The notes under the pieces were generated by a model. It was not told the DNA's origin, did not search any database, and worked only from the letters and a program-made list of their open reading frames with translations. A stretch of 64,000 nt of DNA from assembly GCF_000003815.2 (NCBI RefSeq), contig NC_049993.1, positions 2,010,645 through 2,074,644 of the forward strand, given 5' to 3'. Source of the stretch: Branchiostoma floridae. Taxonomy: Eukaryota > Chordata > Leptocardii > Amphioxiformes > Branchiostomatidae. The position numbers and the translations under genes were made by a program. Positions 6,298 to 56,210 of the stretch are shown here, one piece after another (position 1 is the first letter of the stretch; each line of letters opens with the position of its first letter).

Positions 6298-7354
6298 CTA
6301 GACAATGAAGTCTATCATGATCATATCTGTAAAAATTGAGAAGAAAAGATGGCTTTAAGAGTCCGATGACTGCAAGTTTGGTATTCTATCGGCAGCAAGC
6401 TACCAGGAATGATTAGACTGCTTGTAACGCAAACGCATAAGCAAAGATTATTATCCAACATAAATGTTTAACGTTGTACGACAATCTGTTTCTCCACATC
6501 TGTAGGTTCATGAATCGATAACCAGTTACTCATTTGGTGATTTCAAGTATAAAATACTGAACTACTTTACATTAAATAAATATAAAGATACTTTTTTAAG
6601 TTAGTCTGAATACGGATACAAGTCATCTTTTGTTGAAACCGTAGTGTTGTAACTGAGTCAACAACAGCTGTAAAATGAAAGAAATGCATCCAAAATAACA
6701 TGTCAGTGTTCTAATGATGTAAACGTTTAATACTTGGTGAAAAATAGGCAAAATGTAACATTGATACTGATGATGGCATGGTGCGGGCACTGTTGGGCCA
6801 TTGTTGGAGCGAGCTGCTATTCGGCGCCACTCAGGTGACCTCAAGTTTTAGAGGGGGCTGAACTACACAATTTTTTCCTTACATCAAAATCTATCTGCAA
6901 TCTGAACATTAAGACGATAGCATGTCTTAGCCAAAAGGTACAAAACCGAAAGCTCTTCTGCAGTTCAAAGGTCACATGCTACTTGGCCCCAAATTATCGA
7001 AGAACCTCAAGGGAAGGTTAAATAAATGTTAAAAAAGAAGCTCTTCACAATCAGTATCGAAACACCGAAATTTATCCAAAGTTTCAAATTTGACCCAAAC
7101 TATCCAAAGCAGACTGACACACCAAAATAACATCTCATTTTTGCATGAAGATAATAAAAATAACAATTTTAGCATAGCAAACATCATAATAAGCAAACTT
7201 TATAAGTTATAGCAGAAGCTTGCAATTCTCTATATATTAAAGAATGTGAAATATATAGAGAGGGGGGAGAGAAAAGATAGAGAGAAAGTGAAAGCTCTTT
7301 CATATCTTTTTCAAAATCAAATAAAAAAATTGCAAAAAGTAGAAATCTACTTAC
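6298..7354. other. Intergenic, AT-rich, with dispersed repeat
   Basis: Contains a second copy of the CTTACATCAAAATCTATCTG repeat at about 6875-6985. No further exon of the minus-strand gene could be defended here. Confidence 0.4.
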
Positions 7355-7533
7355 TGTCCCTCCTGTCTCTTTTCAAATTAGTTTTTCCACCACACATCCA
7401 ACTGCAGTTCACGGGACTGATGACCTTTGTCGTCGTAGAGGCGGATGTAGACGTTTGGATTTGTTCCACAGCCACGGTACTTCCCGGTCTTCGTTTTGAC
7501 CAATACGTCAATGTCACCAACATCATGTACTTC
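7355..7533 (-). pseudogene. Inverted, broken copy of the PLAT-domain first exon
   Basis: On the minus strand this encodes IDVLVKTKTGKYRGCGTNP, then VYIRLYDDKGHQSREL and LDVWWKN. It differs by a few substitutions from the PLAT exon of the CYP74-PLAT gene at 17262-17458. The acceptor (TTTCCCAG/GAAG) and the donor (GGGACA/GTAAGTAG) are both kept. A stop codon, TAA at 7378-7380, replaces the GAC codon after WWKN, so the exon cannot encode a whole PLAT domain. The 5' part differs (EVHDVGD in place of the LNKNPDDSDVAG segment) and is 18 bp shorter. No matching P450 exons or second PLAT exon were found on either side. It is an isolated duplicated exon about 9.7 kb from, and inverted to, the intact gene. 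Confidence 0.85.
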
Positions 7534-7693
7534 CTGGGAAATACAAGATTGTGAGGTAGTATCGTTATCTTAAAGAGTCTTACCCAGAAGTTCAGCTGCT
7601 CATATAAGAATTCCAGAAATCACACCCTATCTTTCTGGTATTGTGAAACCAGTAATGTGGTTTAGTGGTTTGGTAATTAGCTTATTTCCAAGT

Positions 7694-10727: not shown

Positions 10728-11307
10728 CGAGGGGCATTCAATAAGTAATGTCCCTGACCCATTTCCCATAGCAGGAGATTAATGAAACTTGGCACAGTTA
10801 TTAGTCTTTCTCTTCATAGGAACCACCCAGAGTTTTGCATTTCTCCCATCATTTGATGTAGCTCTGGACACCGTTCTTGTAGGACATCCCAGGTTGGTCC
10901 TCCGACAGATGCCTCATCAATGGCAGAAGAGGGACGACCAGGTCTGGGAGCTGTTTCCACAGACTTCCGACCTTGTTTGAATTCAGGATGCCAGCGTTTT
11001 ACAAGGTCATATGATGGGGCATCATCACCATAAGTTTTTTTTTCATTTCATCAAAAGTCCCCTTTGGTGTGCGTCCTTTCAAATACAAAAACCGGATCAC
11101 TGCGTGACACTCAACTGGTTCCATTTCACACCTGGTCCATTTCGCACCTGACTAAGTTCAAACACCAGTAAATCAGTAACCACAATTAGTTCAGAGCTGT
11201 TTTTTGCAACATTAGCCATAGAGATATGACTCATTACACATGCAAAATGTCATCTAGATCAAACAACTGGAAGTGGGTCAGGGACATTACTTATTGAATG
11301 CCCCTCG
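10728..11307 (-). mobile_element. Mariner-type transposon remnant with N-terminal transposase piece
   Basis: A 580-bp element bounded by long inverted repeats. The left begins CGAGGGGCATTCAATAAGTA and the right is its complement, TACTTATTGAATGCCCCTCG, each flanked by TA, the target site of Tc1/mariner elements. The minus strand from about 11124 encodes the N-terminal DNA-binding part of a transposase: VECHAVIRFLYLKGRTPKG, then, after a one-base slip in an A run near 11035-11045, GDDAPSYDLVKRWHPEFKQG and VETAPRPGRPSSAID. This matches the helix-turn-helix region of the mariner family. The catalytic part is missing, so this is an internally deleted, inactive copy. Confidence 0.9.
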
Positions 11308-11320
11308 TATATGGCCTCTC

Positions 11321-13774
11321 TTACTCCCGTTCAAACCAGCGGGCTTCACGGTCCAGGATGTCGGTGGATTGGAGGTTGAAGGAATGTCCTTGGTTGTATC
11401 CTAGGTGGTTGTAAATAGCAGAAGTGTTGCCGTTGGCCCTGGGTTTGCAATGTTATTGATACCTTGCCTTTAGTGGCCGGCTAGTCTCACCAATGTATGT
11501 GTTGTTACAGTTCGGTTCTTCGCATTTGAGTCTGTAGATTACATTGGCCTTAGTACCGTTTTGTGGTCTGTCTTTTGGATGTACCAGTTTGTGTCGGAGG
11601 GTTGAGTGAGGTTTGAAATTAGTGGCGATGTTGAAGTTTTGGAAGATCCGTCTGAGTTTTTCCGAAACTCCTTGAACATAGGGGATGGTAATGTTGGCTT
11701 TCTTTCTGTCGGTCAATGGTTGCACTTGGCTGTTTTCTTTTAGTGGTCCGAGGGTTTAAGAGGTTTGTTGAAGGTCCAGTTTTGGTAGCCAGATTTGGTC
11801 AATGCACTTCGGAGATGTTTGTGTTCCTCTGTTTTGGCTTTGTCCGAGGAAATAATGCTGTCTGCCCTGTGATACAGGTTTTTATCACTGCCAGTTTGTG
11901 TTTCAAAGGGTGGCGAGAGTCAAAGGCCAGATATCGGTCAGTGTGCGTCGGTTTCCTGTACACTTCGAACTGAAGGCTGCCCTCTTTCTCTATGATAGTT
12001 TTGGTGTCTAGGAAGGAGGGCATGTTGTCGTGACTTGACTCCTGTGTGAACTTGACGTTCTTATCTACTTGGTTGATGTGGTCAAAGAAGTCATCAGCTA
12101 CTCTCTGTTTTAGCTTGCAGTATGTGTCATCTACATAGCGAAACCAGTTGAGTGAGGGAGTGTCCTTGAAAGTACTGATAGCCTTCTCTTAAAAACTTCT
12201 CCATGTAGAGGTTTACAACGATGGGCGACACTGGTGATCCCATAGCACAGCCGTGCAGTTGTTGGTAGAACTGTCCTTTGAAAGTGAAATAGGTCCACAA
12301 TAGGCAAAGATCTAGCAGTTTGCACAGTTGTTCTGGAGATAGCTTGGTTCTGTCTGTTAGTGTGCTGTCAGCCTCCAGGGTTTCCTTGACTACCGAGACA
12401 ACGTCCTTAGGAGGTATGCAAGTGAAAAGCGAACAGACATCGTAAAAAGTGATGATTTCATCATCTTCTACCCGGAGATCTTTGATCTTGTTAACAAAGT
12501 CTGCACTTTTCTGAACATGGTATTGAGACTTTCCCACTAAAGGTCCTAGGATCTTAGCTAGAAATGTTGCTAACTCGTATGTGACTGATCCTATGCTGGA
12601 CACTATGGGGCGTAGGGGAACATCCTGTTTGTGGATTTTGGGAAGGCCGTAGAAGGTTGGGGATTGTTCCGAAGTGGGGTAAAGTTTTAGATAGGTGGCA
12701 CGGTCAATTTCTTCTTCCTTGTTTTGCAATCCCTTTAAACTGGGTGGTGGGGTCCTTTTTCAAAGGCGCGTAGGTGTTTTTGTCCCCTAATAGATCTTTT
12801 ACCTTTCTGTCGTACTGTTCCCTGTCTAAGACTACTGTGCATGTCCCCTTGTCTGCTGGCAGAATTGCTATGACTTGATTGGTAGCCAAATCTTTGAAAG
12901 CAGTTTGTTCTTCCCGAGTGATGTTGCTGGGAGGGGGGTTTGAAACTTTCAAAGTGGCAGCTTGTTTGGCGCGTAAGGCTTCAGTCTGTCTTTGTGGCAA
13001 CCGGGCACGGTGTATTGCTGACTCAGTTTCAGTGACAATGTCTATGCAGGGGATTTTGTTAGGTTTTACTGCAGAATTTAGGCACTTAGACAGCAGGGAT
13101 TTCTCTGGTTCTGTAACTGGGGTTTTAGAACTGTTTGATCTCCAATCGGGGGCCCTATCTGCACGACTGTTCCCTTCCTTTTGTAGTAGACGTTCAAATT
13201 TGGCCTTCTGTCTGGCTTCCCCCTCCTCATTTTGGGCTTGTTGTCCCCGTGTTACAAAAACTTCAGTGTCAGAAAAGGTGTTCTTTGATAGTTGTTCCCT
13301 CAGCAGTTTTTCAAGTTAAGTTTTCCTGTCATTGAGACCATCCAATTTGTAGTTCATATGGCTCACCATTTCGTTGATTAGCTTCCTTTCAGCGTTGCGA
13401 ATGATACTGTTGGCCTTGAATCCTTTGGTGGGGGTTTTTTGACGTAAACTGATAGGAGTAACATTTATCTTGAGGCTGCGCAAGTTGAAGCGAAGATGGT
13501 TCCTGTAGTCCGCAATCTTCCTGCTCGTCTTCTCCAGGTCTGTCACTGATTTCAGGCCAAACTTACCGTACTGATCCAAGCTACATCGATGTAGGTTAGA
13601 CATCCAGGTAATAAGATACGCCAAAAATAAGTTACTCGACTCACATGGCACAATCTGGATACGTGTTAGCCAATCGTGAGTCCAACATAGACTGAAACAA
13701 AACGCGAGGTCGACCCAAATATAGAAACATGAGGAAACATTGACGTGTATAATTACTGCTTTTGGTCCTGTCAA
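11321..13774 (-). mobile_element. Penelope-like retroelement, decayed (RT plus GIY-YIG)
   Basis: A nearly full-length ORF region on the minus strand, broken by frameshifts and stops. In order: an N-terminal region (13774 to about 12710) with NPPPSNITREEQTAFKDLA and ILPADKGTCTVVLDREQYD; reverse transcriptase (about 12729-11800) with TFYGLPKIHK, RPIVSSIG, the motif A aspartate in FYDVCSLFTCIP, GCAMGSPVSPIV and the YVDD active site in FRYVDDTYCKL near 12120-12150; then YRKPTHTDRYLAFDSRHP. The C-terminal GIY-YIG nuclease includes CNNTYIGETSRPLKARY near 11460-11515 and ILDREARWFERE ending at a stop at 11321. Frame breaks lie near 13318, 12715, 12135, 11725-11800 and 11455. It is a dead copy. It ends only 14 bp from the mariner remnant. 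Confidence 0.9.
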
Positions 13775-14250: not shown

Positions 14251-17200
14251 ATGGGTAACGCATTTGGATATCTGAACTGGCTGAAGAGCAACAATCAGGC
14301 GTTCGCACCTGATCGCACTGAAGACTTCGTGGAGAAAAACATCGGATTTCCGTGTCACGTAGTGACCGGGAACAAGGCCGTGCAGTCCGTATTTGACATC
14401 GATCTTTTCAAAAAGGAGGAATTTTATTTTGGCCAAATAGAAGTCCGGAAGGACTTTACGGAAGGGGTCTGTCCAAGCATCACGTCCAACGGTAAAATCC
14501 ACGAGAGGAACAAGGCGCTTATGATGGACGTCATCGCTGGAGCTTACAAAGAGATCCCGACCTCAACAGCAAATGCCGTGCTGTCCAACATCGCCAGGTG
14601 GGGACGCAGACCGACCAAATTCGAATCAAAGTTGTTTGCAGTGTCAGCTGGAGCTCTCCTTCCCACCATCTTCGGGAAATCAGCACATTTCAATGCTGAG
14701 GGAATCGAGCTCTATATCACTGGTTCGACTGAATTAAGACCAGAATGCTTGGCAGCATTGTTGGAGGAAAATGACCTTATTGAGGGGCGTCCGGCAATGG
14801 CCTACATCCTCGAGAAAATGAAAACATCAGAGAGGTAGGTGTCGGAGACTTTGTCTTTATCAGATATTAAAATATCTATTTATGTTTGCAATAGGTAAAA
14901 CATATTACCCCTATTTGCTAGTATTCTACTCATTTTCTTCCTAGTTCGTTGTTCTTCTTTAGCCGTGATTTTTACGGGGAAGATACCATGCAGTTCTTGT
15001 CTAGTAGTACGTTCAAATACTTGGTAATATAGTTCTAACTTTCCTTAAAATGCTCATAATACATGTATAGCACAAAAATGCATAGACCAATAATGCTTTT
15101 TTTAATTGTATGGCTAAAATTATAACAAAATATGTTTATTATCGGAGTAATATAACAAAGCAATCCAGTGACATGAGTTATGTCAATGTCCCTAGTTTTT
15201 GGTGACGCCTCAGAGGCGAACCTAATAGTATAGTGTTGTGTGAAACTAGCTTGAGAAAAATCAAGAGGGAAACATCCTGCGCTTTCTCGAAAATGTTGCG
15301 CCCTTTTCAAGTCTTTTTTTGGACTTATAGGGATACAAATGACGACACGTACGTTCAAATCTTCTTCAATAGTTTTTTTTTTAATATTCAAAGGTACCAC
15401 CAGCTGATTGATCTTGGCAAATCTCATGGATTCGGGGAGGCAGAGACAACGGGGCAGCTGCTCTTTACAATAATGTTCAACGGTGTTGCCGGCATGGCAG
15501 TAAACCTGGTGCCGTCCTTCGCCCGCTTGGACACCATCAGCGCGGAAGACCGAGAGGAGCTACGGGAAGAGGCGCTTGCCGCCCTGAAGAAACATGGAGG
15601 CCTGACCCACGAGGCTCTGGCGGAGATGCCGAAAATAGAAAGCTTTGTGCTGGAAGTGCTGCGAGCTTGTCCAGCTCCGGACTTCTGGAGCACCATTGCT
15701 ACACGTCCAACGACTGTCAAGTACTCAACAGAGAGTGGACCGCAGGAGGTTGAGGTGAGTGACAAACGTTGTACTCACAGGTATAAGGCAAATAAGTATG
15801 AACACACCAAAGATTACAAATACGTATACACATACACACACGACTACAAACGTATGAACGAACGCGCACACACACAAACACACACACACACACAAACACA
15901 CACACTAGCATACATACCTTCACAAACACCAAACGGACACAAACACAGAGACGATCGCATTCAAACACACACAAACACACACAGAAACACGGACGTACGA
16001 ACGCAAACACACACAGGCAAGACGAAAGCGTGCACACGCACGGACGCACAGACACACACGCATGCACTGATTAGCCTAAGGGTGAAAAATACCCTTTTGG
16101 CCGAAAGCTATTTTTGTTATTTTTTTTTAAATAATGTATCGTCAAGCTATTACATGTTCTCTTGTCCTTATTTCAAGATAAAAGCAGGCGAACGTGTGTA
16201 TGCAAGTTCCTACTGGGCACTGAGGGACCCTGCTGTCTTTGACAAGCCAGACAACTTCATGTGGCGTAGGTTTCTCGGCCCTGAGGGTAAAGCTCGCAGG
16301 GAACACCACGTCACATTTCACGGCCGGCTCATCGACACACCCGCGGCCAACAACCACATGTGCCCGGGTAAAGACGTCGGACTTTCGGTCATCAAAGGCA
16401 GCATCGCCGTTCTCAACACCTTCTTTGGATGGGAGCTCGAGGAGCCGCCAGTGTGGACCGGGACGAAGGCAGCTCGTTTGGGGCAGCCTGACAACGAAGT
16501 CAACATCAATTCATTCTGGTTGCAACACCCCAATGACTTGAAAGCGGTTTTTCCATCCTACTTTGATGACATCATTGACGTAAGTTGTCAATTTTGATAT
16601 ATATTCTTTGGCTAGTAGCTTATGCTACGGTTACATATATACCTCTCTCCAAAATATTATTAAAAGTTTTATGCAAATTAACTTTTATTAAAATAACTTC
16701 TAACTGCTATTCACACTTAAGCCCAAAAATGAATCTTAGAAAATCCCGCCATGCAATGGTGGACTATTTCAGTGCACTCAATGTAGGAAAGTTTCAGACC
16801 AGTCGCCCAAAAAATTTTCGCTAAAAACGAATCATAACCCGTCCAAAGCTGAATGAAAAAAAAGATACGTGCAAAAATGGAATCTTCCTGTGGTATCCCT
16901 ATGAGGAGCAATCCAAAAATAATTCCGCTAAAATAGGACTCTGACATAATCACCAAAGTCACCAAAAATTAAATTTAAAAATACTCCCCCCCCCCCCCGG
17001 TGCAAGAATGGACTCTTCCAGCACATCTCATGTAAATCGATGCTTTGATGATTATATTACGGCGTCTATTTGTCGCCTTGTGCCTGGTTGATTTTAACTC
17101 CAGTTTTAAACAAATAACTTCTGGTTGACACTAGCTCCAGCTATATTCTAGATCCATATTTTTGCGGTCGTCTTCGTAGGTATTGACCATTTCATTTATA

Positions 17201-18145
17201 GATTAATACTAGTACTGGTGTATGATCTTATTTGACCGTCTTACCTTGTATTTGTGCACAGGGACTGAATAAAAACCCGGACGACAGTGATGTTGCAGGA
17301 ATTGACGTTCTCGTTAAAACGAAGACTGGGAAGTACCGTGGCTCTGGAACAAATTCAAACGTCTACATCCGCCTCTACGACGACAAAGGTCATCAGTCCC
17401 GTGAGCTGAAGTTGGATGTGTGGTGGAAAAACGACTTTGAAAAGGGACAGAAGGGACAGTAAGTAGATCTCTACATTCTGTAAGTTTCGAATGAAATAGG
17501 TAAACAAATATTAGAGTTGAAGGCATAGGCCTCTCTCATTCTTTCCCTTCCCTCTTTCTGTCTCTCCCCCTCCCTCGTCGGTCCCACTCACCCCCCCCCC
17601 CATATGCTATGGTCTTGATGTTTTGGTGGCAAATATATTTTTGATGTAAGGAATATATGTTGTACGGGCCTCCTTGCAGCCTACTCTGGAATTGCAGGGG
17701 GATTTCTGTAAAGAAAAAAGAAAAGTTTTGTAGTAGCAACTGCTGCTGAACTTCGTGGATCTAATAGACTACCACATTTACCTTTTCCAGGTACAAACTG
17801 AAGGATGTAAAAGTGGCTGCCCCAATTGTGAAGATAGAGCTGTTTCGGGATGGGTGCCACCCTGATGACGACTGGTACTGTGAGTCCGTCTCTGTCCAAC
17901 TCAACCCCGACAACAAAGGACCTACATACGACTTCCCTGTGAACCGTTGGATCAGGAAAAGTGCGTATCTTCGATATTTGAATAGATGAAAATGCATGCG
18001 TCCCTGTCTCTGATACAGTATTAGATCAATGAAGGTGCATGGATGTGTTCCTACATTTGTACACTACTTTTGTTTTGCCTGATATATAACCTATATATAT
18101 TGCGTGTGTTTGAGTGAATAAGAAATTGGTTTACCCGTTGTTTTG

Positions 18146-18179
<34 letters not shown>

Positions 18180-18347
18180 CATAGATTATGCTAAGATTCT
18201 TTATAAATGGAACATTATTTTTACTTATGCTGTTTGTTATTGTAGCTTATTAACTGTTTCCTATGTCCATCAACAGATGATCACGTGTGGCTGAGTCCCG
18301 GTGGATGTGAGTCTTCACAGGATGACGTGAAACCCAAAGATGGCTAG
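14251..18347 (+). CDS. CYP74-type P450 fused to a PLAT/LH2 domain
   Basis: Six coding exons with matching phases: 14251-14834, 15394-15754, 16178-16579, 17262-17458, 17791-17960 and 18277-18347 (stop TAG), giving 594 residues. Residues 1-449 are a complete CYP74-like P450. The I-helix segment FNGVAG has Asn224, where ordinary P450s have an oxygen-activating threonine; the K-helix ExxR is E282 to R285; the haem loop is NNHMCPGKD with Cys377 as ligand, and the extended spacing before the Cys is typical of CYP74. There is no N-terminal membrane anchor. Residues 463 to about 573 are a PLAT domain. Known CYP74 enzymes rearrange lipoxygenase-made fatty-acid hydroperoxides without O2 or a reductase, to allene oxides, aldehydes or epoxyalcohols. 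Which product is formed here cannot be read from the sequence. The N-terminus MGNAFG fits the loose N-myristoylation pattern. No frame damage is seen. Confidence 0.9.
15775..16070. repeat. Degenerate CA-rich microsatellite in CYP74-PLAT intron 2
   Basis: Roughly 300 bp of ACACAC-type repeats with interruptions, just after the donor at 15755. It keeps an open plus-strand frame that runs from exon 2 to exon 3. That frame is an intron artefact, because GT-AG borders at 15755 and 16177 give the conserved EVE-IKAGERVYA join. Confidence 0.8.
17262..18347 (+). CDS. PLAT/LH2 domain portion of the CYP74-PLAT gene
   Basis: Three exons (17262-17458, 17791-17960, 18277-18347) encode residues 450-594. 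After a short linker (LNKNPDDSDVAG) comes a canonical PLAT beta-sandwich: IDVLVKTKTGKYRGSGTNS, NVYIRLYDDKGHQSREL, KVAAPIVKIELFRDG, DDDWYCESVSVQL and the late hallmark FPVNRWI, then an acidic C-terminal tail with SQDDVKPKDG. PLAT domains of lipoxygenases and lipases bind membranes, often with calcium, or bind partner proteins. The preceding exon ends in phase 0 and runs straight into this one in frame, with no stop, polyadenylation signal or start codon between them, so the P450 and PLAT parts form one reading frame. Confidence 0.9.
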
Positions 18348-18549
18348 GATGAACTTCTGGTGATGAACAAAGCACCATCAAGTCTATAAATCAGACGAAT
18401 AACGAGACCCTTTTGACAAATACTTCATTTACACCGACATTTGGATGACCGCCTGTCACCTTCATGTGTGCAATTCTGAACTGTAGCGCTAGGTGTCACT
18501 GTTTACAATTGGAAATGCAAAATTGGGAATGCGATCACTAACGTAAAGA

Positions 18550-18555
18550 AATAAA
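18550..18555 (+). terminator. Polyadenylation signal for CYP74-PLAT
   Basis: AATAAA about 200 bp after the TAG stop, in AT-rich sequence. It is the first canonical signal downstream of the gene. Confidence 0.6.
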
Positions 18556-19148
18556 GCATTTACAAGTCACTGCGCGCGTAAAAATACTTTTGTTACGTCA
18601 GCTGGAACTATAAGCAGCTTCACATAGTACAATGTGAATCAGTCAGCATTCTCTGAGGAAGGTGACGGACGGTAACCAAAACGTCTGTGAAAATAAAGCA
18701 AGGGTTGTAAAAGGTCTTTTCTCAATATGCAACAGGTTCGAAATCATTGTTGTCATTTTTTTCCAGTTAACGCCTTTAGAATATCAAAAGGCAAATGGCG
18801 AGAAAAAACAAGGGTCCACTCTGATCAAAGCTTTATGGGTCGAGTTCATCATGCTACAGATTTTTTATATGTGTGATATGTTATACTATCTTTAATCCAC
18901 CTCATCTAATCATTTAATAGATATCACTTGCAAAGTAATGATCATAATTTTTCAATTTTCGGTAGATATTCGAGAGTAAGCGATATTAATCGAAAGCTAG
19001 AGTTATTTTTTTTTATTGACCAACCATAGTTTGTAACACTCTATATCATATATACGGGATTTGTTTCTTTCTAGCTGTTGATGAGCTACTCAGTAAGAAG
19101 CTCTATCATGTGGGGACTTTAGTGTGGTAAATTAGGCGTTTAGAGCGG
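18556..19148. other. Intergenic, no supported gene
   Basis: AT-rich and unique. The open frame 18662-18895 has no coding character that I recognise. Confidence 0.4.
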
Positions 19149-20313
19149 TCTCACTAAATACCGAAAACAACCGAAAACAACTTGACATCTACCGAAAACA
19201 ACCGAAAACAACCCGTAAAATACAGAAAACAATGAAAACAATTTGATATCTACCGAAACAACTCCATAAATACCGAAAACACCTTAATGAATACTGAAAC
19301 AACTCAATAAGTACCGAAAACAACTCAAAACATCCTAAAACACGCATGAGCAACCGATCAGAACTCCAAAACAGCCGGAAAATGACTCTTAAACAACTAC
19401 TTATTGCTATTTTATTTTCATCTACTCGTTACTATCCCTTGCATTCTTTTCTCCTTGGCCGAGGGAGAGAATGGGGTGATTCTGGAGGATATTTGCAGCA
19501 AAGGGGAAGTAGACTGTGGAAACACCTTTCTATCACACACTGTTTTATTTTGATCATTTAGTTTAATCCAGAATAAGGGGCCTCTGTGGCAATACACGTT
19601 TGCGGTTTGTCCATTTAAACCGATTTGTTGTGATAGCGGAATGCGTTAAAATTGAGCAAGAAATGTTCTAGATTGTTTTGGTTGATAGAAGAAAATGTAG
19701 TACACATGAGGTAAATGCGCAGCAGGCAGATTCAACAATAATTGATAAGCAAACCTATTTTCGAAGCAGTTTTGTCGGGGGATAGTAGTGACTGCGATTT
19801 CATGTTGGGGCCACTACTACACCCCCGCTCGACCGTAACCTCTGCTTGGAGTTACACAATAGATGCCAAGTAGTATAGATATCCATTGATGAGTTTGCGA
19901 GTTAACCAAGCAGTCCCCGTTTATAATATACAGAATACTTACAGGATCCGTGAATCTGAAATCGAACATTAATATTTTCCAAAAGGCAAAGGAGATCGTT
20001 GACTCTATTATTACTAATATTGTATTAATAACATTGGTCGTCCTAGCCTAACTTCTGTCCAAAATAAAATCAAAATTATTAAATAATAACCCATTGAAAT
20101 GATTGTCTGTTGTTTATGGTTGTGTCGAGTTGTTTTCGGTAGTTAAAAGTTGTTTTCGGTTGTTTTCGGTAGTTAAAAGTTGTTTTCGGTATTTAGTGAA
20201 AGTTGTTTTCGGTTGTTTTCGGTTGTTTTCGGTAATTAGTGAAAGTTGTTTTCGGTTGTTTTCGGTATTTAGTGAAAGTTGTTTTCGGTTGTTTTCGGTA
20301 TTTAGTGAGACCC
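19149..20313. mobile_element. Element with tandem-repeat inverted ends
   Basis: The left end begins GGTCTCACTAAATACCGAAA and continues as about 180 bp of repeated ACCGAAAACAA units. The right end at about 20103-20313 is the reverse complement: repeated GTTGTTTTCGGT units, then ATTTAGTGAGACC. The 0.75 kb between has no coding capacity. Matching inverted ends over 1.17 kb suggest a non-autonomous DNA transposon whose ends are built of short tandem repeats. The superfamily is not recognised, and a partial MITE end sits inside near 19800-19855. Confidence 0.75.
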
Positions 20314-21356
20314 GTTTAGAGTATGTTTTCGTATGAATTATACATGTGCATGTTAGAAATGGAGAATCGCGATCTAGACATTGGTGTGTTTTATTGGGAG
20401 GGGTGTCAGTTTTTCAATAGGTTCTATGATTTAAAGTTTGATACAAGTGTTGTTGGTGGAGTAGTAGGATAACTTGTTTACTTTATCTTGAGGGGTCTAT
20501 CATAGATTGTAACTTACATGTCTCTACTACTCGTACACGGTGAATTCAGTACCTCATTAGCAAAACAGCCTGTTATACTTTAGCTTTTACTAGGCCCCAC
20601 AACTGGCTGGAAAAATCGACTAAAATGTATGAATACACCATCCCTTTTGTATGCTGCATTCCGGTCTTTATTAAAAGAGGGTCTCTTTTAATTTGACACT
20701 TACTTCACGTTACTTGTATATATTACTGGCGAATGACGTATCTATATATCTCATTAGTTGAATAGCCTGTTCTGAATGCCATTGCCTCTACCAAATTCCA
20801 CAGGTCGCTGAAAAACAGTAGAAATTGACCAAACAGATAGGTAACATGCTAAAAGAGGTAGTAGGTCAGGGATTACAGTTAGCAAGAAATTGGCCAGGGG
20901 ACCAATACAATGCCAGGGTAGCAAGCTGTCGAGGGGGTTGGGGGGTGGGGCAGCTTCCAATTGGGTCCCTAGCTGTTGAGCTGTTCATTTAAGACAGCTA
21001 ACTCATCTGGTATTTTATTTGCTATTTTGTCAGCAATCCATGGAGCCTAGTAGAGGTACTGGAAGACAACCTACTGCATGTATATCTGCCTGGCAGGAAC
21101 GTAAAAAAATCGGTTGAATTGTCATAGTGCAAAAAATTAAGTAAGGGTATATAGTATCTCATGTATTATTCTTAGACTTTGGTGGCGGTAAACTGGCAGT
21201 ATATATCAGCAATTGTCATTAACCATTTCTTGTAAACGCAGTATTTACGGGTCAGCAAACTTAATAAATATGACAAAGTGGTGGAATCAAATACTTTGTT
21301 GGGTGTCACATACACACACACTCTTACACATACACAAACAAAAACACACACAACAA
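20314..21356. other. Intergenic, no supported gene
   Basis: No exon recognised. A short CA-rich tract lies at about 21308-21352. Confidence 0.4.
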
Positions 21357-32389: not shown

Positions 32390-33664
32390 CTATGGGAAGT
32401 TGGCTGGAAACCTTTGTTCACTGGTATAATTGGATTTTCCGGCGTACTTTTGTGGGCGGAATTGTATCCCTTGTGTGCGCTGTGTGCCGGATATAAAAAT
32501 CGTAAAAGAAACTCCGGTGCGAGACCACAGCCAAAGGCGGGAAGAGGTCCCGGATGTGCATTGTCGTTCTTTCTTCTGCTCACAGGTCTCATTTGCTTTC
32601 TTTGCTTTGTATGATGTTCTTTGTTCTGCAAGACTCTCTGTCTTCTGTTGATAGGTTTGTTTTTCTTGTTTGTCCTTGCATATTGCGCTTTGGATTGCAA
32701 GACCTTGCACTTTTTTATCATTTAAATTTGATGCTGCATTTGGTGACATTACTAATTGATTCAAGAGGCCTTCATTCCTGTTCTCTGGCATAGCACTTGG
32801 ATGTTTGCTTGTGGTGCATGGCACAATGTTTTTCCCAGTACTTTGGTTACAATGTGGTGCAAATGGAAATGCTGTGTTTGGTTGTTGTAGGTTCTCTTTC
32901 GTAGATACAAACTCTGGTTTAACCAAGGTGTATGTGTGTTGTTGTTGAACTTGAAAGCAGTTTTCTGACTCAATCATAGAAGAAACATTGCTAGTCAGAT
33001 TGATAATGTGTATACCAGTAGGTTCAACTGATAAGAAAACATTTTCTGCTTGTACTGGGACAACCTCAAAATTGCATGTTGTGTTCCAGTTAAGTTGTTG
33101 CAAGAATGAAACTAGATTGCTGTTTGAACTGTGCATGCTTAAAGTAGAAGTGCCATGGCTATCTGGCAATGCTGTTATGGGACTTCTGGCATGTGAGTCA
33201 TAAACAAAATACTTGTTATCAGCGTGCAACAATGCTACTGTTGAACCAGTTATTCCATGTGCTGTTATGAAAAGACAAGTGTTGGATTCAGCAAATGCTG
33301 CTTCTAGGGCTTTCTTTAAGGTGTAATAAGGATAGACTGCTTCTGTGGCAAATATGTCTCCAGTGTAAGACTCTTTTATTGATACACGTACAGTATTGTT
33401 GTAAAGTTGCAAATAGTCTGGAATATCATCAACGGAGAGGAACTCCACACCAGATCTTAGTGATGGTTTTATGTAGGTGTATAGTGCATCTCCTTGAAAA
33501 AGTACACCATCAAGGTCTGTACTTGTCCAGGTAATTGCTTGTCTGCAAGTACTGTGGTTAACAACTGCCATTAAAGCATTTGCAGTGCATTGTTTGCCTC
33601 TATTATCTCCACTGAAAATGATGTCACCTTGGTGGTATTTTCCCGATAAAATAGATTCACACAT
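32390..33664 (-). CDS. OTU/C76-like cysteine protease ORF, probably transposon-derived
   Basis: Single-exon ORF of 424 codons. Residues 1 to about 230 have the features of the OTU/peptidase C76-like cysteine protease domain carried by some large animal transposons: GDIIFSGDNRGKQCTANAL with candidate nucleophile Cys26, LDGVLFQGDALYTYI, FLSVDDIPDYL, and YFVYDSHARSP with candidate catalytic His158. After a Ser/Thr/Asn-rich linker, residues about 340-395 form a Lys/Gln-rich segment (TYQQKTESLAEQRTSYKAKK) like the basic repeats found ahead of replicase or helicase domains in Helitron-type proteins. In the last ~50 codons the better frame seems to shift, since the -1 frame carries a different continuation to 32383, so the C-terminus is probably broken. 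No helicase or transposase follows in the window. It could be a fragment of a larger element or a stand-alone relic. Confidence 0.6.
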   Translation of the reverse strand: MCESILSGKYHQGDIIFSGDNRGKQCTANALMAVVNHSTCRQAITWTSTDLDGVLFQGDALYTYIKPSLRSGVEFLSVDDIPDYLQLYNNTVRVSIKESYTGDIFATEAVYPYYTLKKALEAAFAESNTCLFITAHGITGSTVALLHADNKYFVYDSHARSPITALPDSHGTSTLSMHSSNSNLVSFLQQLNWNTTCNFEVVPVQAENVFLSVEPTGIHIINLTSNVSSMIESENCFQVQQQHTYTLVKPEFVSTKENLQQPNTAFPFAPHCNQSTGKNIVPCTTSKHPSAMPENRNEGLLNQLVMSPNAASNLNDKKVQGLAIQSAICKDKQEKQTYQQKTESLAEQRTSYKAKKANETCEQKKERQCTSGTSSRLWLWSRTGVSFTIFISGTQRTQGIQFRPQKYAGKSNYTSEQRFPANFP

Positions 33665-33696
33665 TGTTCACAATATATGTGTTCTTTGCTTGACTT

Positions 33697-54164: not shown

Positions 54165-56210
54165 TTACATGTTCAACATGCGCACCATGTAGGGTATAGC
54201 ACTCGATCTGTATCTTTCCGTTCTACAATGAACAATGTCGAGTTTGTGTGATGAACGAGTCACCCTGCCACTGATATCCACACGTGAGAGTGAAAGTAGG
54301 TGTCTGTACAGCTTCGACTGTTCAAGTGATTTGGTGATGTTAACAGTTAATTGTTCACGACGTGACTTGAATGTAGGTAGGCCCAGCCAAATACATGCTT
54401 TGGAGTAGGATGTGTAGTTGGTGCCCAAGATGATTCGAAGTGCTCGGCGTTGGACGTTCTCGATTTTGTTGCTGAGAGTTGTGGATTGTCCGGAGTGCCA
54501 AACGGGCGACGCATACTCCAGAATCGGGTGGATATAACAGGTGTAAACCGTAACTAGATCATCAGCAGGAACGCGGAAGTGCTTCAGTTTGATGAGTAAG
54601 TACAGACGTTGGCATGACTTCGTGCACATGGAGTCAACGTGCGTATTCCATTTCAAGTCTTCTTGGAGGTGAAGACCCAAAATCTTCATGACTTTCACAT
54701 GTTGAAGTTCAATGTTACTTATCATGAGTGGTGGTGGCACGAACGACGTCTTACTAAACTGGATGTGAAGGACGTTGCATTTGCGAGGGTGTAACACCAT
54801 GTCGCTTTCACGGGACCAGTTCTCCAGATCCGAAAGGTCTTCTTGGAGCTTCGTTGACACTACAGTCGGATTTCTGACTTCTAGGAAGTTGAGGTCGTCA
54901 ACAAACTTCCACCGCCTAGATGCGGCTAGGGTTGTGGCACTGTTGATGTAGACTATAAATACCAATGGTCCGAGGAGAGAACCTTTAGGTAGGCCACAGG
55001 TAAAGGTGATGTTCTCGGAAAGCGCACCATGGTACCGAACTGTCTGTTGTCTGTTTCTGAGAAAGTCGACTATCCAGGATGTAAGCGAGGGTCTCAAGCC
55101 TAGGTCGATCAGACGTTGAATGGCAACGTTGTGGTTCACGTGATCAAACGCTTTACTAAAATATGTTGATACTAAGGAACACAGTATACCCGTCTTGTCA
55201 GTAGCCTTGAAGATCTCGTTGGTAAGGTCCAAAAGACAGTGTGTTGTTGATCTGCCTTTTAAACACCCAAATTGCTATGGGTCGAGTTGGGGAAGGATAT
55301 CAGATAGAGCCCACTGTGCAAAGAAACTCTCTGCGACTTTGCTCAACGGCAAAGATGTCAAGGAAATAGGACGGAGTTCACCGATGGTTGGTGGCTTGGT
55401 CTTTGGAATGGGGACGACAACAGCTGATTTCCACTCTTCCGGTACCATGCCTTGGCTGAGCGATGTGTTAAAAATGTCTGACAATGGGCGGCTCAGTTCA
55501 TATGCAAATTCCTTAATGATTTTACCTGAGATCAGATCAGGTCCGGCTGCATTTCGAGTTTTAACACTCTGTAGCTTCCGGTAAACCTCCCAAGGTTGCA
55601 CAACCGGAGGCAAGAGGGATGGAAGGTAGGAAGGAAGCGTTGATGGTTCTAGTGGCGGCAGAGAGGTAGTCACAGAGGATAACGAGTTGTTAATTGCATT
55701 TGCTATCCCCACGGTGTCACTGGGCGCTACGTCACTGGTGTGGATGACAGGTTCCGCTCTTCTTGAGTTAGCCGTGGTTTTGATTTGTTGGTACCACCGA
55801 GCAGGGTCTTCTTTCTTAAAGTCTTTAATCTTCTTGTTGAAGTATGTTGCTTTGGCGATCGAGATCACACGCTGAACTTTGTTTCTGAGCTGTTTCCAGG
55901 ACTTAACGTCATCATTAGCAAAGGCCTGTTGACGTTGGTGAATCAGGGTTTTGATAGCAGGTGTGATTCAATGTTTGTCCTGGTGGTGAATGTGAATGTA
56001 TTTTAATGGAAATAAGTAATTTAGTTGGGCTTGAAGGGTGGCGTATAATGCCCGAAACTTCTACACTGCAGTGCGGGCGGAGAACACTTCGGTCCAATCG
56101 TGGGAAGTAAGCCATTGCCCGAAACAGCGAAGATCGGAATCCCGTAAGGGTCGACATGAGCGTTTGGTCGTCTTGTTGACCGGTCAGGTTAACAATACCT
56201 TGGTTCAAAC
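54165..56210 (-). mobile_element. CR1/Jockey-like LINE, 5'-truncated reverse transcriptase
   Basis: A minus-strand non-LTR reverse transcriptase. From about 55868: ARWYQQIKTTANSRRAEP, RNAAGPDLISGKIIKEFAYE, VPEEWKSAVVVPIPKTKPP and LRPISLTSLPLSKVAESFF. After an in-frame TAG at about 55275: FSKAFDHVNHNVAIQRL, GLPKGSLLGPLVFIVYIN, the active site as FVDDLNFLE, and the thumb region with ILGLHLQEDLKWNTHVD and HPILEYASPVWHSGQ. It ends in a proper C-terminus at 54165. Sequence from 55870 to about 56210 keeps pieces of the region between endonuclease and RT, with frame breaks (IKTLIHQRQQAFAND). The endonuclease domain itself is absent. One stop and a few frameshifts mean it is a fairly young but dead copy. 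Confidence 0.85.

Follow-up and report, generated by a model that had tools for sequence, protein, structure and literature searches.

A CYP74-clan cytochrome P450 with a lipoxygenase-type PLAT domain in the lancelet Branchiostoma floridae

The coral AOS-LOX and HPL-LOX proteins (catalase-related domain, PLAT and 8R-lipoxygenase; PDB 3dy5) place a hydroperoxide-using heme domain N-terminal to the PLAT that belongs to the lipoxygenase (LOX). In work attributed to Gilbert in 2008, this linked PLAT of AOS-LOX reportedly carries the complex to membranes. The fungal DOX-CYP proteins have the reversed domain order and no PLAT. They also join a dioxygenase and a hydroperoxide-rearranging cytochrome P450 (P450) in one chain, with the difference that the dioxygenase is a heme enzyme instead of a LOX (available text of PMC11719350). 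Among lancelet enzymes, CYP440A18 (BbEAS/AOS) of Branchiostoma belcheri, with 458 residues, acts fast on 9- and 13-hydroperoxides and is 71% identical to the B. floridae epoxyalcohol synthase BfEAS (CYP440A1) over 76% of the latter (available text of PMC8124189). Within the open-licence literature, no fusion of CYP74 to PLAT or of P450 to LOX is described in the available text of PMC8124189, PMC10813956, PMC5793058, PMC11719350, PMC5617202, PMC11507377, PMC9409215, PMC8508710 or the other sources searched. Here we describe a gene at positions 14251-18347, on the forward strand, of a window of 64,000 nucleotides, the whole stretch analysed (C15:2010645-2074644 of the 513-Mb Branchiostoma floridae genome; coordinates below are window positions unless a contig is named). 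Its predicted product, like the coral proteins, sets a hydroperoxide-using heme domain before a PLAT of LOX type, whereas the heme domain is a P450 instead of catalase-like and the LOX domain is missing. We consider it probable that the gene descends from a CYP74-LOX fusion that lost its LOX part, that the PLAT was kept under purifying selection and that this module was later exchanged between paralogs.

The original prediction joined six exons into one 594-residue frame, and the spliced-frame reconstruction agrees with it: all introns are GT-AG and the phases match. Exon 1 (14251..14834, ending in phase 2) encodes residues 1-194, the N-terminal part of the P450, as placed by the spliced frame and by tblastn of the window with 13 lancelet CYP74 relatives (P0001-P0013). 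Exon 2 (15394..15754) carries the I-helix motif FNGVAG (N224) and the ExxR motif (E282, R285), and exon 3 (16178..16579) carries the heme-binding part, NNHMCPGKD (C377), and ends with IID before the donor GTAAGT. Retention of the junction intron (16580..17261) would add VSCQF and a stop, giving a P450 without PLAT. Exon 4 (17262..17458), which we call PLAT exon A, is a homolog of the LOX first coding exon; exon 5 (17791..17960), PLAT exon B, ends with FPVNRWIRK; and exon 6 (18277..18347, stop codon TAG included), PLAT exon C, corresponds to the 5' part of the LOX exon that links PLAT and catalytic domain. The PLAT exons contain no in-frame ATG, so the P450 frame is the sole evident route to their translation. 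In a protein database search, P0001 (634 aa) showed 94% identity over 100% of the query, which excludes chance as the source of the combined P450-PLAT frame.

The P450 part matches Pfam p450 (PF00067) at residues 220-358 (E 5.5e-12, above the curated cut-off). The CYP74 marks are found at the positions originally given for them. N224 in FNGVAG replaces the Thr of monooxygenases, the heme ligand C377 stands in the CYP74-type context NxxC.GK, and E282 and R285 are present. Counterparts of these four residues are unchanged in all 11 lancelet relatives of an alignment that does not include the window protein. The Arg in WRRFLG, which we take to be the third member of the ERR triad, is conserved in the same alignment. 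By sequence, the nearest solved structures are plant allene oxide synthases (2rch, 2rcm and 3dam, the first of 14), and when the AlphaFold model of P0001 (mean predicted local distance difference test, pLDDT, 70) was compared with known structures, CYP74A allene oxide synthases took ranks 1-6 of 1470 matches. Over 100% of its length the window protein is 73% identical to P0003, taken here as CYP440A1; by convention, members of the CYP440 family share at least about 40% identity with CYP440A1. To judge from its sequence, the P450 is of the CYP74 clan and of CYP440 type, and the enzyme probably rearranges fatty-acid hydroperoxides that a lipoxygenase has made, mainly to epoxyalcohols. Enzymes of the CYP74 clan use such hydroperoxides with neither O2 nor a reductase.

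Relatives with the same layout are found in other lancelet records. The window protein gave 18 matches in the protein database (17 lancelet proteins and one bean P450), and a search with the 11-row alignment gave 16, all lancelet; no P450-PLAT protein from outside the lancelets appeared among the approximately 8000 candidates, picked by shared words, that each search scored, a selection that may miss distant animals. Among the matches of the window protein, P0001, P0003, P0004 and P0005 have P450 plus PLAT, the combination for which a search had been suggested at the outset; P0006-P0013 are without PLAT, and P0002 adds a LOX. P450-PLAT proteins are recorded for both B. floridae and B. lanceolatum. 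In the genome, PLAT exons follow CYP74 exons in the same orientation at five loci: C7:24.46 Mb, the window, C15:3.13 Mb, C15:15.74 Mb and C15:3.07-3.10 Mb, the last with a 22.6-kb gap between the parts, so that their joining is putative. The exon 3 donor GTAAGT is common to the four copies inspected (window, C7, C15:3.13 and C15:15.74), and the PLAT exons are open in all five (A, B, and C down to a common stop). The C15:3.13 copy is a recent duplicate, with 95% identity over 2.7 kb.

One of these proteins has very probably been assayed. P0003 (B4YIJ3; 588 aa, B. floridae) stands in a record named as P450 74 family and contains a PLAT. Its best genomic match is C7:24.46 Mb, where four P450 segments are 98, 98, 91 and 86% identical, the fourth running into an intron and reaching 95% over 346-451, and three PLAT segments are 100, 89 and 77% identical; this copy is thus close to the record and not identical with it (77-100% by segment). 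P0008 shows 71% identity to P0003 at 76% coverage, and 76% of 588 residues is the P450 part alone. These are the figures published for CYP440A18 and BfEAS, so P0003 is very probably BfEAS, identified by matching identity and coverage and not by accession, and the assayed epoxyalcohol synthase itself very probably carries a PLAT. BfEAS and the window protein share the order P450 then PLAT, the PLAT intron positions and a stop at the same linker codon; they differ in being paralogs whose P450s fall in different groups. The P450-PLAT layout had been thought new, a view that P0003, the five loci and very probably BfEAS do not bear out. CYP440A18 is a CYP74-clan lancelet enzyme that shares the I-helix Asn and heme Cys with the window protein; it is fast yet too short for a PLAT, and therefore the PLAT is dispensable for catalysis in CYP440A18 (available text of PMC8124189).

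Five further P450 matches, 25-31% identical to P0003, lie at C16:9886121, C9:24302228, C1:1922431, C8:3629456 and C1:8705078, and in each of them a single open stretch covers the N-terminal half; they perhaps form a distant second CYP74-like group in this genome. Within the window, a lone PLAT exon A with a good donor (7354-7542, reverse strand) shares 81-86% identity with P0003 and P0005, two of the CYP74-PLAT relatives; no P450 exon and no exon B or C matched nearby. From its sequence, it appears to be a remnant of another CYP74-PLAT copy.

The PLAT had been described as full and ending in FPVNRWI. Pfam places it at residues 466-573 (PF01477; E 1.7e-21, 77.6 bits against a gathering cut-off of 23), with FPVNRWI at 563. 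PF01477 and PF00067 were the sole Pfam matches in the protein, with neither a LOX catalytic domain nor a catalase-related heme domain, and Pfam, motifs and relatives agree with the proposal that an animal CYP74-clan P450 and a LOX-type PLAT share one protein. The domain matches 2fnq and 3dy5 (E 3e-11), and its NDFE loop, a feature of the calcium-activated coral LOX, is aligned with the NDFE of 2fnq, 3dy5 and 3vf1, residues that are presumably calcium ligands. Exons A-C match LOX PLAT exons with identical intron positions. Exon A starts beside a probable former LOX start codon, which reads GGA-ATG in C15:3.13 and GGA-CTG in the window; in a plain LOX gene on contig C19, an ATG stands three bases after a probable acceptor, and no P450 match was found in the 7.8 kb preceding it. 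The exon A start of the window, GLNKNPDD.DVAGIDV, resembles the GMDE.PDVDGIDV or GV of the LOX-bearing P0002 and P0019-P0021, and is less like the start of the C19 lipoxygenase, MCDRPTTEGIDV. Remnants of the LOX core within the window were sought by tblastn with 12 LOX cores and rejected (best E 0.09). In the intron between exons A and B, a dispersed repeat occupies 17604-17749 and is present also in the four other CYP74-PLAT loci and in both C19 lipoxygenase loci.

The reading frame past the stop codon also resembles LOX. At 18348..18371 the linker continues in frame as DELLVMNK, compared with DELLLMKK in LOX; this match runs for eight codons, none of 50,000 shuffles scores as high, and both alternative frames have negative scores. 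Among the paralogs, the shuffles that do as well out of 50,000 number 0 at C15:3.07, 97 at the BfEAS locus and 208 at C15:3.13. The stop stands at an identical position in all five B. floridae copies and, judged by protein length, at the same place in B. lanceolatum P0004. The first AATAAA after it lies at 18550..18555 and a second at 18692. At the level of sequence, the gene structure, the identity of the domains and the LOX origin of both the PLAT exons and the post-stop stretch are established.

Lancelets also have proteins in which the LOX is complete. Residues 440-700 of P0002 (PLAT and linker), used as a query, matched 46 proteins: 7 with P450, PLAT and LOX, 4 that combine P450 with PLAT, and 35 lipoxygenases that have no P450 part (33 of them lancelet). 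Six of the triple proteins are full-length (1118-1122 aa), namely P0019, P0020 and P0026 from B. floridae x B. belcheri records, P0021 and P0024 from B. lanceolatum and P0023 from a B. floridae hybrid record; the seventh, P0002 of B. belcheri, is a shorter model (1032 aa). The full-length ones are named 'polyunsaturated fatty acid 5-lipoxygenase-like' in the database. In all seven, the Asn, ExxR and Cys of the P450 are conserved, as are the HxxxxH, HAAVN and C-terminal Ile of the LOX, and the three domains scored above the Pfam cut-off in each of the five that were scanned. Their CYP74 and PLAT parts are homologous to those of the window protein throughout, and P0019-P0021 and P0026 belong to the same P450 group; they run on into a complete lipoxygenase, whereas the reading frame of the window gene ends within the linker. 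The original prediction had set the window protein against coral AOS-LOX, and the catalase-like nature of the coral hydroperoxide-using part stands; the contrast weakens, in that the full-length lancelet relatives have the coral layout with a P450 in its place. Nor is the claim borne out that a targeting domain had been added to the hydroperoxide-using enzyme. The PLAT exons correspond to the 5' exons of a LOX gene and CYP74-PLAT-LOX proteins exist in lancelets, and therefore loss of a lipoxygenase is likelier than gain of a PLAT.

A model of P0024 (mean pLDDT 76, predicted template modelling score, pTM, 0.59) matched lipoxygenase structures first, with coral AOS-LOX 3dy5 at rank 34; the placement of its domains is unsure because of the pTM. 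A CYP74-LOX gene in the B. floridae genome itself was sought and rejected: LOX core and CYP74 exons were never at one place, and where they share a contig (C10, C12) they lie more than 4 Mb apart among the best-scoring candidates, a set in which a miss is possible. Other lancelet lipoxygenases have different partners. P0022 (B. lanceolatum) has PF01582, which we take to be TIR, alongside PLAT and lipoxygenase, and P0051 (B. lanceolatum) has a GTPase-like N-terminus, as read by eye; lancelet lipoxygenases may thus also be joined to immune-type domains.

The P450 and PLAT halves of the gene have different relatives. In the P450 tree, the window groups with P0001 and the solo P0006 (support 100/99), apart from BfEAS and inside an 11-row group that holds five LOX-bearing proteins (100/99). 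In the PLAT tree (46 rows; P0054 was dropped as too short), it groups with P0001, P0005 and P0003 (100/99). When the DNA of the window gene and the BfEAS locus was compared, the P450 half aligned at exons alone, and in the PLAT half the intron at 17961-18096 and the 3' untranslated region at 18372-18518 aligned too; among the sequences searched, these two stretches match CYP74-PLAT loci alone. The synonymous divergence (dS) between the two genes falls from 0.52 in exon 2 and 0.61 in exon 3 to 0.34 in PLAT exon A and 0.24 in PLAT exon B (the value for exon 1, 1.08, is inflated by a one-codon shift and was not used). Together, the alignment of non-coding sequence and the fall in dS suggest that the 3' PLAT module was probably exchanged between paralogs after their P450s had parted.

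The PLAT is under purifying selection. Among the five B. floridae copies, the ratio of nonsynonymous to synonymous divergence (dN/dS) of exon A is 0.02-0.17 in all 10 pairs. For exon B, covering four copies with C15:15.74 left out, it is 0.05-0.12 in five of six pairs and 0.52 in the sixth, which has six changes in all. The domain likely docks the epoxyalcohol synthase on membranes in a calcium-dependent manner, roles that we infer, and it would most likely hold the P450 where the hydroperoxide is made or stored without being needed for catalysis. As proposed at the outset, the enzyme may share a membrane with a lipoxygenase.

We favour a history that would have begun with a CYP74-PLAT-LOX fusion like those that lancelets still possess. 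It would have formed when a splice donor just before the end of the P450 was joined to the first coding exon of a LOX, beside the LOX start codon. The catalytic part of the lipoxygenase would then have been cut off by a stop codon in the linker exon, and the P450-PLAT form would have been retained and duplicated, its PLAT end being exchanged between paralogs. The order of these events, loss as opposed to capture, we infer from sequence and do not regard as proven. There is a minor but real chance that the PLAT was captured instead: the 5' exons of a LOX would have been duplicated behind a CYP74 gene, the triple proteins would have arisen separately, and no lipoxygenase would have been lost in this lineage. 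Several observations speak for such a capture or otherwise weigh against the loss that we favour. Post-stop LOX sequence and a common exon C are equally expected if 5' LOX exons alone were copied behind the P450, and at one of the five copies, C15:15.74, the post-stop signal is absent (11,876 of 50,000 shuffles as good). Among the best-scoring candidates, no LOX catalytic exon lies on C7 or C15, the contigs of the five loci, and therefore no remnant of a LOX core is known near them. The PLAT of the window falls with those of P0001, P0003 and P0005 in the one clade described above, and the PLAT of P0026 comes from another LOX clade, so that fusions were formed or exchanged on more than one occasion and can recur. 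The P450 tree needs 5 changes for the LOX label and 3 for the PLAT label on a weak root (73/79), and therefore the trees do not give the order of events. B. lanceolatum P0004 groups with the LOX-bearing P0024 in the P450 tree (100/96), its PLAT placement having support of 37/74, which leaves a single truncation unproven. Each of the seven long proteins is known as a database gene model alone, and where human 5-LOX has a Trp in one of its insertion loops, at the position that we assume for it, the window PLAT has none. As for the exchange, the likeness of the intron at 17604-17749 to that of BfEAS was rejected as evidence, that stretch being the dispersed repeat found also at the C19 loci, and the recent duplicate C15:3.13 is without 17961-18096 beyond 17987. 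Against capture stand the position of the window P450 within a group holding five LOX-bearing proteins and the exon A start, which is more like that of the LOX-bearing P0002 and P0019-P0021 than like MCDRPTTEGIDV of the C19 lipoxygenase.

Other readings concern what the gene makes and whether its tail matters. Through intron retention, the locus might yield mainly a P450 ending shortly after exon 3, with the PLAT form as a minor isoform. The VSCQF and stop past the exon 3 donor are like the tails of the solo proteins P0006 (LITCD) and P0010 (MTTCG), and P0001 is named 'isoform X1', so that other isoforms are annotated; the donor GTAAGT is strong in all four copies inspected, however, and the database proteins of the close relatives P0001, P0003 and P0005 include the PLAT, which leaves this reading a small chance. 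We think it very unlikely that the PLAT has no function and simply persists from the fusion, given the low dN/dS of both its exons, the PLAT exons kept open in five of five copies and the P450-PLAT proteins of two species, even though the PLAT-less paralogs P0006-P0013 exist and CYP440A18 works without one (available text of PMC8124189). That two neighbouring genes were merged, by eye or by gene predictors, is hardly credible: while the joining is known here from gene models and genomic sequence alone, P450 exons are followed by PLAT exons at five loci, the four inspected use the same donor, proteins of several species have the same junction, the PLAT exons of the window offer no ATG in frame, and P0003 contains a PLAT under a P450 74 family name.

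Several other elements were noted in the window. Just upstream of the gene, broken retroelement frames on the reverse strand (11453-13774) include an RVT_1 match below the cut-off and a GIY-YIG-like end; we take the element to be Penelope-like. At about 10728-11310, a transposase fragment that is presumably mariner-like lies between terminal inverted repeats seen by eye (GAGGGGCATTCAATAAGTAATGTCCCTGACCCA and its reverse complement). Downstream of the gene (19150-20320), clusters of the short repeats CCGAAAACAA and TTGTTTTCGG, mutually inverted, flank a stretch. Farther along, both on the reverse strand, are a 425-aa open frame with Pfam Herpes_teg_N above the cut-off (32390-33667) and reverse transcriptase frames at 54165-55967, with RVT_1 at 59 bits in 54165-55274.

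Taken more broadly, we lean, with some reserve, towards the view that lancelets evolved a one-chain CYP74-PLAT-lipoxygenase oxylipin synthase independently of the coral catalase-LOX and fungal dioxygenase-P450 fusions, that CYP74-PLAT enzymes such as BfEAS and the product of the window gene dropped the lipoxygenase and kept the PLAT to stay on the same membrane, and that exchange of the 3' module converts one form into another. If this is true, lancelets, which as chordates stand near the vertebrate line, unite the maker and the user of a hydroperoxide in a single chain along a path distinct from those of corals and fungi, and BfEAS should be reinterpreted as an enzyme with two domains. The lancelet proteins would then offer natural sets, differing in whether LOX and PLAT are present, in which the contribution of a PLAT to a hydroperoxide-using enzyme can be studied.

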